DNA of 40,970 bases from Elusimicrobia bacterium RIFOXYD2_FULL_34_15 (GTDB lineage: Bacteria > Elusimicrobiota > UBA8919): positions 1 through 40,970 of the forward strand of contig MGVS01000023.1 of the NCBI GenBank assembly GCA_001800605.1. Reading direction: 5' to 3'. The notes under the pieces were generated by a model. It saw only the letters and a list, made by a program, of their open reading frames with translations. It did no database searches and was not told where the DNA came from. A program made the translations under genes and the position numbers. Of the stretch, positions 26,070 to 29,697 are shown piece after piece (positions within the stretch are counted from its first letter, which is position 1; each line of letters starts with the position of its first letter).

Positions 26070-26426
26070 TTAATGCTTAATTGCGGTTTTTTCTTCTTCT
26101 TCCAACTTATTTTCAATAAAATGTTTCAATATAAACTTGCTTATAAAACCTATTTTAGAGAATTGCACTCCGTAAAAATATGAATTTTTATCTTTATATT
26201 CCCATACAATATGTCCAACAGCTTTAATATTTTTTTTGCTTGGCAGAAGAAACGAAAATTTGCATTCATCGCCTATTCCTATCGCTGCTTCGGTTTCAAC
26301 GGCCAATCCGCCAAGACTTATATTTTTAATTAACCCTTTATACAAAGTTCTCTGTATCGTTATTACTAAAATATCAACACCTGCATTATAGGAAACTCTT
26401 TGATGCTTCCTTTGCTCAGCAAACAT
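26070..26426 (-). CDS. PilZ-domain protein (candidate c-di-GMP receptor)
   Basis: This 118-residue protein is a stand-alone PilZ domain. RKHQRVSY at about 6-13 is the RxxxR motif and NISLGGLAVE at about 35-44 is the D/NxSxxG motif, the two c-di-GMP-binding elements. GHIVWEYKDKNSYFYGVQFSKI is the typical last strand pair. A strong promoter places its -10 only six bases before the ATG and no Shine-Dalgarno exists, so the mRNA is probably leaderless. It is followed by the small HAMP-like gene. The type IV pilin gene nearby makes a motility or adhesion target possible, which is inference. Confidence 0.88.
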   Translation of the reverse strand: MFAEQRKHQRVSYNAGVDILVITIQRTLYKGLIKNISLGGLAVETEAAIGIGDECKFSFLLPSKKNIKAVGHIVWEYKDKNSYFYGVQFSKIGFISKFILKHFIENKLEEEEKTAIKH

Positions 26427-26527: not shown

Positions 26528-26601
26528 AGGGTTCGAGGGGAATTGAACCCCTAACCTAACGGTTCGAAGCCGTTCGCTCTATCCAGTTGAGCTACGAACC
26601 C
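26528..26601 (-). tRNA. tRNA-Arg (anticodon TCG)
   Basis: The 74-base cloverleaf has acceptor GGGTTCG/CGAACCC, D stem GCTC/GAGC, anticodon stem AACGG/CCGTT with loop CTTCGAA (anticodon TCG), and T stem AGGGG/CCCCT with loop TTCAATT. The discriminator reads T, which is unusual for tRNA-Arg. CCA is not encoded. Confidence 0.95.
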
Positions 26602-26606
26602 AGATT

Positions 26607-26735
26607 TTATGAGTTATAGCGTTTTAGTGTTATTGGGTTATAGCGTTTTTCCGAAATTAAGTCATCGGCGAGCCTACCCAAATATCAGTAGTTGAAACTC
26701 TAAGAACTCTATGAACGCTAAAACTCTATAAACGC
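26607..26735. repeat. Word-repeat element (TATAGCGTTTTAG type)
   Basis: TGAGTTATAGCGTTTTAGTG and GGGTTATAGCGTTTTTCC on the left face AACTCTATGAACGCTAAAAC and TCTATAAACGC on the right. The same word appears in direct and inverted orientation, so a long imperfect hairpin can form between the fusion gene and the tRNA. Confidence 0.65.
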
Positions 26736-26740
26736 AACTT

Positions 26741-27793
26741 CTACCAGCCACTTATTAATTCGCCTTTTGTATCGGTATGAATACAATTTACAAAAGCCTT
26801 TCCTTGACTTGTTATGTAACCCCAATTTCCTAAATCAGTCGATGTGTCTCCATCATTAAAGTCATCCATATCTGCAGTATCAGTATGCCCCGATATGCCT
26901 AATTTTACCGTTGGCATCGAATTTACATATTTAGTTTGAAAAGGCCCGCTAATATTCATTATAGCGGCCGCATTTTGCGGATATTGAAATCCTTCGAAAT
27001 CACTATAATATAATGTTATAGCGCTTCTTAAATTACCGAGAGCTCCTTTAGTTGCTCCTTCTTTTGATTTTCTTATCATGTTTGCAAACTTAGGGATGGC
27101 TATTGCAGCAAGAAGTCCGATTATTGCAACAACTATCATTAACTCAATAAGGGTAAAACCTCTCTTTAAAGATAAAATCATTCTGCCAGGTAAAATAGCC
27201 GATGGCGGTATAAATTTTTCCATAATTTCTCCTTTTATTTCTTTAAAATCAGTCTTTGAGCTTATTTGTAAAATTAAAATACCGTCTTTTTTAAGAAAAG
27301 GCGAACATAGTTTTTCTATTCCAAATATTTTTGTTACCGCTCTTGCTGTTACTATATCCTGAGTCTTGGTATATTCCGGTTTATTGCTAATTTCCTCTGC
27401 TCGTCCGCATACTATTTTCGCTTCTATTTCAAGCCGCTTGCATAAATACCTTAAAAATTCCGTTTTCTTTTTTGAAGAATCTAACAGTGTCAAAGATATT
27501 TCAGGTAATACAATTTTTAAAGGTATACCCGGAAACCCCGCTCCAGTACCAATATCCGTTAAAACACATTGTTTTGTTATTTTCGATTTAATAACCGGCA
27601 CTATGCTCAGCGAATCTAAAAAATGTTTTTGAATTATTTCTTCGTCGGCCGCAGGGCCAATAAGATTAAATTTCGAATTCCATTCCTTTAACTCTTTAAG
27701 ATAAATTGAAAATTGTTCAAGCTGTTTTTGATTTAGTTCTATTTTTAAAATCTGTAACCCTTGCAAAAATATTTCTAACAATTTTGAATTCAT
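26741..27793 (-). CDS. rsmG: RsmG (16S rRNA m7G527 methyltransferase) fused in frame to a type IV prepilin
   Basis: Residues 1 to about 210 are a full RsmG: FNLIGPAADEEIIQKHFLDSL, the SAM site DIGTGAGFPGIPLKI, LLDSSKKKTEFL, CGRAEE, VTARAV, and a C-terminal LPGRMILSLKR in the place where RsmG normally ends. Without a stop the frame continues as a complete prepilin: GFTLIELMIVVAIIGLLAAI with cleavage expected after Gly212 and Glu at mature position 5, then a GspG/PilA-like helix (KEGATKGALGNLRSAITLYYSD) and a 138-residue mature pilin. An internal ATG at 27223 (residue 191, MEKFIPPSA) has a near-perfect AAAAGGAG five bases upstream and would yield a separate prepilin with a 22-residue leader. 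The fused chain may be cut by prepilin peptidase. The gene overlaps DUF2723 by ATGA. An assembly join between similar sequences is a possible artefact. Confidence 0.9.
   Translation of the reverse strand: MNSKLLEIFLQGLQILKIELNQKQLEQFSIYLKELKEWNSKFNLIGPAADEEIIQKHFLDSLSIVPVIKSKITKQCVLTDIGTGAGFPGIPLKIVLPEISLTLLDSSKKKTEFLRYLCKRLEIEAKIVCGRAEEISNKPEYTKTQDIVTARAVTKIFGIEKLCSPFLKKDGILILQISSKTDFKEIKGEIMEKFIPPSAILPGRMILSLKRGFTLIELMIVVAIIGLLAAIAIPKFANMIRKSKEGATKGALGNLRSAITLYYSDFEGFQYPQNAAAIMNISGPFQTKYVNSMPTVKLGISGHTDTADMDDFNDGDTSTDLGNWGYITSQGKAFVNCIHTDTKGELISGW
27229..27236 (-). promoter_or_regulatory. Internal ribosome binding site for the prepilin part of rsmG
   Basis: On the minus strand AAAAGGAG is followed by AAATT and ATG (27223-27221), inside the rsmG coding sequence. 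It is among the best Shine-Dalgarno sites in the window and is in frame with the prepilin domain. Confidence 0.7.
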
Positions 27794-29697
27794 TTTATTC
27801 CGCTTCCAGGTTTATTCAGTGATTTCATAGATTTAGATCTTTGGAGCTCCAATTTTTCTTGGGACATTTGAAGATTTTGTTTGATACCCTCATCATTAGG
27901 AGCATAATTAAGTGCATTTTGAAAATATTCGGCTGCTCTATTAAAATTACCTTGTTCCCAATACACAACCCCTAAATTGTTATATGCCTGGGAAAGCTCC
28001 GGATCTATTGAAATTGCCTTTTCAAAGAGCTTAATACTTCGATTATATATTTTTTTACCGCTAAACACAAGTCCCAGATTATTATAACCTGCAGAATAAT
28101 AATTAATAATTTGATGGGTAAAAAATCTTTTTTTTCCTGAAATACGAGGTTCAACATACAAATCAAATATTGTTTCATCTACCGCAGAATTACCATATAA
28201 AAGCCCTTTTGGCGAGACATTATAATTTCTAGGGATTTTACCTATATTATCCGAGTAAAACGGAAAACGATTGAAGTTGTATGATATAAGTGTATTTTCT
28301 AATTCCATACCTGATTTTATCTCATATTTTGGTAATATTTCCGGATGTTTCTCTTTTAATTGTTCGTAACCCCAAAATGTTTTATAAAATACGGCAAGTT
28401 TTATGTCTTTTCTTTTATTCAAGCATTCCTGCTGATATTTTAGCGTAAATGTTGTTGTGTCGTCCGGATTGTATAATATCGAATTAAATGGAAGTGTTTT
28501 TAATAAATCTTTTGAATAATCATATGCAATAAATTCATATCTTTTATCAAGATTTTTAATATTGAAACTAATCACTAAAACTAAGATTAAAAAAGCCAGG
28601 GCAATTGTATTTTTTAAACCTGCATGTTCACCTAATTTCAATAAAAAATTATAAATGCCTATTCCTATCCAAACTACGAAAATAATCAAAGGCATAATTA
28701 GATATGGTTCTAAAATGGGAAGTGATGTCTTGTCTTCCAACGGTAGATTTGATACTATAAAAAATATTGGCCCTGAAAAAAGCCAAAATAAAAAAAACAA
28801 CATAAAATTTTTCTTTTTAACGGTCCAGTAAATTCCAAAAATAAGGAATGGTATAACCCAAAAATCAAACTGTTGTACGGAAACTTTTAAAAAATTAAAT
28901 AAATTATTTACTATTGCGGAAATATCGGTAGTGGGGCTTTGTTCCGGGTGCAGCCGGATACTTCCATAGTCGGCCCGAGTTACTATTCTAACAAAATTTC
29001 TTAAGGACTTTGCCGGTTCGTCCCAATTTGCAACCGGATTTTGAGCCGACCTGACCGGCAGAAAAATATATACTGAAAAACCAAGAACAAAAAACAGCAT
29101 TAATTTTTTTATTAAGCTAAAATTTAGATGTATTTTCTTTTTTAAAATAAAATACAAAATCCCAGGTAAAAAAAGTATTAATGTTTGATGATTGCATAAA
29201 CCTAACCCAAAAACAAAAACAATAAACAATAAATTGTTTGTTAAAAATAAAAGACTGATCATCAAAATTGCAAAAAATGCATTCATTGAGTACATTTCTG
29301 AGACAATGCTCAATGACCACATTGACGAGGTAAATGCAAATATAAAAACACAAAGTGTGGAACATACTAAAATTAATAACCTTTTAGATTTATTAATTTG
29401 TTGTATTTGTTTTTCTCCTTCTGATAATAAATAGTTTAAAACATAAAACAATAAACTGCATGCCATTGCACCAAATACCGCACTCATTAAATTTATACGA
29501 TATGCAATATTTCCGAAAGGAATCACCAATGTGAAAATCTTTCCGAGCAGAACATATAGGGGATAACCTGAAGGATGTGATATTCCGAGTGTAAAAGCAG
29601 AAACTATCATATCCCCGCTATCGCGATACGGTGATATCGTGGGATACATTGAAAAAAGGTATACTAAAAATGTCAGATTATAGATTATGAAAAACAT
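27790..29697 (-). CDS. DUF2723 multi-pass membrane protein with C-terminal TPR repeats
   Basis: The 635-residue protein opens with YRDSGDMIVSAFTLGISHPSGYPLYVLLGKIF, the DUF2723 signature (an acidic loop motif like that of C-type glycosyltransferases), followed by about ten hydrophobic helices to about residue 400. A soluble region and two TPR units (YNNLGLVFSGKKIYNRSIKLFEKAISIDPE, AYNNLGVVYWEQGNFNRAAEYF) close the protein. DUF2723 proteins are thought to be lipid-linked-sugar glycosyltransferases, but no activity is established to my knowledge. Overlap with the RsmG-pilin gene raises the idea that it glycosylates pilin; that is inference. Confidence 0.85.
   Translation of the reverse strand: MFFIIYNLTFLVYLFSMYPTISPYRDSGDMIVSAFTLGISHPSGYPLYVLLGKIFTLVIPFGNIAYRINLMSAVFGAMACSLLFYVLNYLLSEGEKQIQQINKSKRLLILVCSTLCVFIFAFTSSMWSLSIVSEMYSMNAFFAILMISLLFLTNNLLFIVFVFGLGLCNHQTLILFLPGILYFILKKKIHLNFSLIKKLMLFFVLGFSVYIFLPVRSAQNPVANWDEPAKSLRNFVRIVTRADYGSIRLHPEQSPTTDISAIVNNLFNFLKVSVQQFDFWVIPFLIFGIYWTVKKKNFMLFFLFWLFSGPIFFIVSNLPLEDKTSLPILEPYLIMPLIIFVVWIGIGIYNFLLKLGEHAGLKNTIALAFLILVLVISFNIKNLDKRYEFIAYDYSKDLLKTLPFNSILYNPDDTTTFTLKYQQECLNKRKDIKLAVFYKTFWGYEQLKEKHPEILPKYEIKSGMELENTLISYNFNRFPFYSDNIGKIPRNYNVSPKGLLYGNSAVDETIFDLYVEPRISGKKRFFTHQIINYYSAGYNNLGLVFSGKKIYNRSIKLFEKAISIDPELSQAYNNLGVVYWEQGNFNRAAEYFQNALNYAPNDEGIKQNLQMSQEKLELQRSKSMKSLNKPGSGIK

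Follow-up and report, generated by a model that had tools for sequence, protein, structure and literature searches.

An open frame joining RsmG to a type IV prepilin

We analysed a window of 40,970 nucleotides (contig MGVS01000023.1) of Elusimicrobia bacterium RIFOXYD2_FULL_34_15, in which a single gene encodes both an RsmG-type methyltransferase and a type IV prepilin (Table 1). Read on the minus strand, from 27793 to 26741, the gene comprises 350 codons without a stop; the plus-strand translation of the same interval is full of stops. The interval given in the initial annotation is correct, and its strand, which had been left unstated, is minus. That annotation had also described RsmG fused in frame to a complete prepilin, and indeed both halves of the frame score above their family cut-offs. 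GidB (Pfam) covers residues 24-187 (E 2e-45) and the NCBIfam RsmG model TIGR00138 reaches 148.5 bits, against a curated equivalog cut-off of 99.5. On the second half, N_methyl (Pfam, PF07963) covers residues 210-233 (E 6.6e-8, 32.3 bits against a cut-off of 21.2), and TIGR02532 (NCBIfam, IV_pilin_GFxxxE) likewise scores over its cut-off. This half displays the features that define a prepilin, the cleavage motif G/F-T-L-I-E followed by a hydrophobic helix.

Table 1 Features of the fused locus and its surroundings (window coordinates; / marks the scissile bond)
Feature	Position	Strand	Remarks
Upstream gene, TMEM260-like membrane protein with TPR	27790..29697	-	its stop overlaps the rsmG start (ATGA)
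Fused gene rsmG-prepilin	26741..27793	-	350 aa in a single open frame from ATG to TAG
RsmG domain, residues 1-211	27161..27793	-	SAM motif GTGAGFPGIP; C-terminal strand ILPGRMILSLKR; GidB, TIGR00138, Foldseek
Internal Shine-Dalgarno AAAAGGAG	27229..27236	-	duplex energy -8.9 kcal/mol
Internal start codon ATG, codon 191	27221..27223	-	only internal start column common to 8 genomes
Predicted leader of free prepilin MEKFIPPSAILPGRMILSLKRG, 22 aa	27158..27223	-	
Predicted prepilin peptidase cleavage site KRG/FTLIE, codons G212 + F213	27155..27160	-	N_methyl, TIGR02532
Mature pilin, residues 213-350, 138 aa	26744..27157	-	predicted after G212 cut
tRNA-Arg (TCG), downstream of fused gene	26528..26601	-	

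In an AlphaFold model built on a 47-sequence alignment (mean pLDDT 91.5), the RsmG fold is complete, with strands reaching residue 210 and the last of them spanning residues 204-210, and the pilin helix, which constitutes the membrane segment, starts at residue 215. RsmG structures ranked first in Foldseek searches, with B. subtilis GidB (1xdz) as the best match (E 6.7e-18, TM-score 0.77 by target length), and the closest solved chains to the pilin part are pilins. The protein therefore shares its full fold, sequence family and last strand with RsmG/GidB, the 16S rRNA m7G527 methyltransferase (TIGR00138; PDB 1xdz, 3g88), and the GFTLIEL motif with Glu5 and the long N-terminal helix with type IV prepilins (PF07963; Geobacter and Neisseria pilins). 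However, in the known RsmG proteins that we sampled, the chain terminates at the last strand or extends by a short tail only, whereas the RsmG of this family continues into the pilin. The join lies at the normal RsmG end, as had been proposed: in the sister-family genome G008, a stand-alone RsmG ends with LLPGRSVIIMRKADIV and a stop, followed by a different gene, while in the window ILPGRMILSLKR runs directly into the cleavage glycine and FTLIE.

Downstream, an Arg-tRNA-like sequence also follows the pilin in several relatives. In the window, a PilZ-domain protein is encoded on the minus strand just past the tRNA-Arg (26070-26426), and the segment between this tRNA and the pilin stop (26605-26740) contains short imperfect repeats like TTATAGCGTTTTAG, in both orientations.

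Distribution and origin of the fusion

The same in-frame join was found in all eight genomes examined of this Elusimicrobiota family (G000-G007), a recurrence that exceeds chance; these genomes represent five genera and are related to each other, hence not independent, and over the fusion, six relatives are 56-74% identical to the window protein. Related genomes had been suggested as the place to look for RsmG proteins ending in a pilin, and the finding of separate genes in relatives, with a frameshift only in the window assembly, as grounds to abandon the fusion. Each family relative is fused, which excludes that outcome. The fusion is carried by independent assemblies from different projects (UBA9627, CG06_land_8_20_14_3_00_38_11, NC_groundwater_1671, Zod_Metabat.39 and UBA4817), so that an assembly or frameshift artefact of the MAG is already refuted by the relatives, and we rejected this explanation, whose probability is negligible. 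A programmed frameshift at the join was discarded as well, the slippery-like TTTAAAG being present in G000 and absent from its relatives.

Two of the matches came in pieces. G002 has an insertion within an RsmG loop, and in G004 (UBA4817) the RsmG part is split where a 7-base tandem repeat of the same loop shifts the frame, the later part and the pilin being joined as in the other genomes; this frameshift is either an assembly error or the mark of a broken full-length product. Differing 7-base tandem repeats (e.g. CTACCGT, CTTCCAA, ACTGTCA) occur in this loop in four relatives (L084 at ~2671-2740, L003, L004, L005). No second confident RsmG was detected in any of the eight genomes, the sole other match, in G005, falling below the family cut-off; on this gene content, RsmG is obtainable only as the fusion, which must be the family's only source of the enzyme.

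Simple counts gave dN/dS of about 0.08-0.22 for both halves, and by this measure RsmG and pilin are each under strong purifying selection. From family membership and this selection, we infer that the RsmG half methylates G527 of 16S rRNA. At the cleavage site, GFTLIE is invariant across the family. The linker that connects RsmG with the pilin has no conserved sequence and varies from about 0 to 34 residues; the distance from LPG to the cleavage glycine is 11 residues in G000, 14 in G002-G005, 24 in G007, 25 in G006 and 45 in G001. The linkers are rich in indels, of which three or four at minimum must have occurred, every one in frame, and no genome has a stop.

To trace the fusion, a tree of 40 pilins was computed, which unites the eight fused pilins in a single clade (97/86), with a stand-alone pilin of G008 as its sister (86/91). 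This unfused copy shares a contig with rsmG, at a distance of ~14 kb. The simplest history would be a single fusion event at the base of the family, a proposal that rests on the pilin tree since the RsmG-only tree is poorly resolved. Outside the family, the pilin was absent from 75 of the 75 nearest GTDB relatives of this RsmG, which are stand-alone, and a survey of 341 genomes of the phylum revealed no other C-terminal pilin on RsmG among the long frames inspected. In high-GC genomes of the phylum, the RsmG frames inspected, 470-800 aa long, owe their length to open sequence ahead of RsmG and have normal C-termini, and the long frame L053 is likewise an upstream extension rather than a fusion. 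In the phylum, 23 of 192 good-quality genomes have no detectable RsmG.

These data bear on whether the join is incidental, a stop between two genes having been lost once and the fused form tolerated with no regulatory gain. A single origin and linkers of unconserved, indel-rich sequence are what such an accident would leave, but the frame has been kept, and stops have stayed absent, through several linker indels in five genera, and we consider this reading very unlikely. It is partly compatible with the production of two proteins, since a pilin start at codon 191 requires that the RsmG stop be lost.

The putative internal start at codon 191

As the initial annotation stated, the internal ATG is codon 191 and is preceded at five bases by AAAAGGAG; conservation of both the start codon and the Shine-Dalgarno sequence in all eight genomes strengthens the case for the internal ribosome-binding site that it had suggested. 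In a codon alignment of the eight genomes, a start codon is found in every genome at two columns only, 1 and 191, G004 having no residue in column 1 owing to its frameshift. Seven genomes have ATG as codon 191 and G002 has GTG, and in G002, G005 and G006 this codon is the sole start codon ahead of the pilin. A start at M205 (ATG 27181) was rejected, as it exists in G000 only.

In the window, the Shine-Dalgarno energy at codon 191 is the best among in-frame start codons, against -4.4 kcal/mol at the rsmG start. Across the family it ranges from -6.6 to -9.3 kcal/mol, ranking first in frame in six of the eight genomes and third or better in the other two, and it is stronger than that of the rsmG start in every genome compared (-1.0 to -5.9 kcal/mol at the latter, seven genomes measured). 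The mean at codon 191, about -8.0, compares with means of +1.5 to -6.8 for internal methionines that are conserved in two neighbouring genes, taken as a control. The value of -6.8 stems from an invariant GGEM in MnmG, which has no known internal start, so a Shine-Dalgarno-like sequence alone is no proof of initiation, because protein sequence can force such sites. In RsmG, the motif is not forced by the protein, since the sister-family RsmG lacks GEIM at this site. Moreover, Gly188, which supplies the GGA of the Shine-Dalgarno sequence, is the only codon-fixed column among 21 conserved glycines: its codon is GGA in seven genomes and GGG in G002, the GTG-start genome, where by our own pairing count GGGGGT can retain six Shine-Dalgarno pairs without a shift of register.

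Predicted mRNA openness at the internal site spans the 20th to the 97th percentile and is unremarkable in several genomes, and counts of internal promoters and terminators are close to the shuffled expectation. In the long linker of G001 (L009), codon 235 is a GTG with a Shine-Dalgarno-like sequence (-7.0), possibly an extra pilin start that would provide a 12-residue leader.

Leaders counted from codon 191 span 22-56 residues across the family, approximately the type IVb range, for which 15-30 residues are quoted (PMC6201914), and are longer in three genomes. The fused pilin differs from the principal stand-alone pilins that these genomes encode (L159, L162, L163, L166, L168-L170): their leaders measure ~6-9 residues, and their Shine-Dalgarno sequences, AAAGGAGGTGA or AAAGGGGGTGA, are strong. 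Several of these pilins lie beside the prepilin peptidase.

Probable products of the fused gene

Taken together, the sequence data make it likely that the gene yields two products, an RsmG-prepilin fusion serving as the only source of RsmG and a free prepilin initiated at codon 191. Initiation at codon 1, with its weak Shine-Dalgarno sequence and overlapping upstream stop, would produce the 350-residue chain, and initiation at codon 191, behind a good Shine-Dalgarno sequence located in the rsmG part, would produce the free prepilin, whose leader would consist of the last two strands of RsmG and the variable linker. We infer initiation at each of the two starts, cleavage of the full-length chain by the peptidase and assembly of the pilin into a filament. 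The greater strength of the internal Shine-Dalgarno sequence relative to that of rsmG suggests that most of the pilin would be made separately, which would loosen any tie of pilin output to RsmG such as the initial annotation had envisaged.

An A24 peptidase domain is encoded in all eight family genomes and A24_N in seven. For prepilin peptidases, cleavage takes place at the cytoplasmic face of the membrane, and leaders vary in length (PMC10191384). Splitting of the long fusion is plausible, and we regard it as about evenly balanced. According to the AlphaFold model, the scissile bond of G000 lies two residues beyond the folded RsmG domain, close enough that cleavage of the long form could be hindered; with no linker in G000 and the bond so placed, the free prepilin is expected to be the better substrate.

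A stricter version takes up the polyprotein splitting put forward in the initial annotation: the full-length chain alone is made and the peptidase splits it one to one into RsmG and pilin. The peptidase with its A24 and A24_N domains, the cytoplasmic site of cutting, the variability of leader length, the invariant cleavage motif and the absence of a stop between the halves in any genome would all suit it. Yet it leaves the codon-191 start in eight of eight genomes, the strong Shine-Dalgarno sequence and the fixed glycine codon unexplained, and the site in G000, two residues after the last RsmG strand, is awkward for it; we judge it unlikely. Alternatively, RsmG might stay uncleaved, with the pilin as its membrane anchor. 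The obligatory fusion and the membrane-spanning pilin helix agree with this possibility, but an anchor needs neither the full cleavage motif nor a secreted domain better conserved than RsmG (81% against 72% identity between G000 and G001), and we give it a very slim chance. Under the two-product proposal, RsmG itself may obligatorily be made as a prepilin 'leader', its release from the membrane depending on the peptidase cut, with the internal start adding further pilin, a proposition that we hold tentatively, at slightly below an even chance.

Our literature search yielded nothing relevant on an RsmG-prepilin fusion, and a prepilin with a whole housekeeping enzyme as its leader was not found in the literature searched either; the initial annotation, too, knew of no described case. 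In-frame internal starts are a known principle, and what was not found described is the pairing of RsmG with a pilin and its conservation throughout a family. In Bradyrhizobium, the FbcH polyprotein of cytochrome b-c1 is split by signal peptidase, so that a leader-cleaving peptidase separates two proteins, as proposed for the fusion, but the peptidase is a different one and both FbcH parts belong to one complex. The fused pilin also departs from type IV prepilins in its leader, which has 212 residues in the fusion and otherwise 22-56 residues that also belong to an rRNA methyltransferase. According to Richter 2012, as cited in PMC6201914, the single pilA gene of Geobacter sulfurreducens gives two prepilins, with leaders of 10 and 29 aa, and PilD cleaves the one as well as the other. 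This reported long- and short-leader pair resembles our proposal, except that the long leader there is a short peptide and here a whole enzyme. Phage endolysins, as presented in PMC9430671, provide single genes in which an in-frame internal start gives two polypeptides with a common stop, but both products serve one enzyme; here one would be an rRNA methyltransferase and the other a secreted subunit of a filament.

The fusion thus unites, family-wide, an enzyme of translation maintenance with a secreted filament subunit, and appears to be a clean case in which the start site of one protein sits, in frame, within the final strands of another. As a natural prepilin with a whole folded enzyme as leader, it would test the amount of cytoplasmic cargo that is tolerated both by prepilin peptidase and by the membrane-insertion route. 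If RsmG is indeed freed only by the peptidase, a pilus-processing enzyme would be a maturation step for an rRNA modification enzyme throughout a bacterial family.
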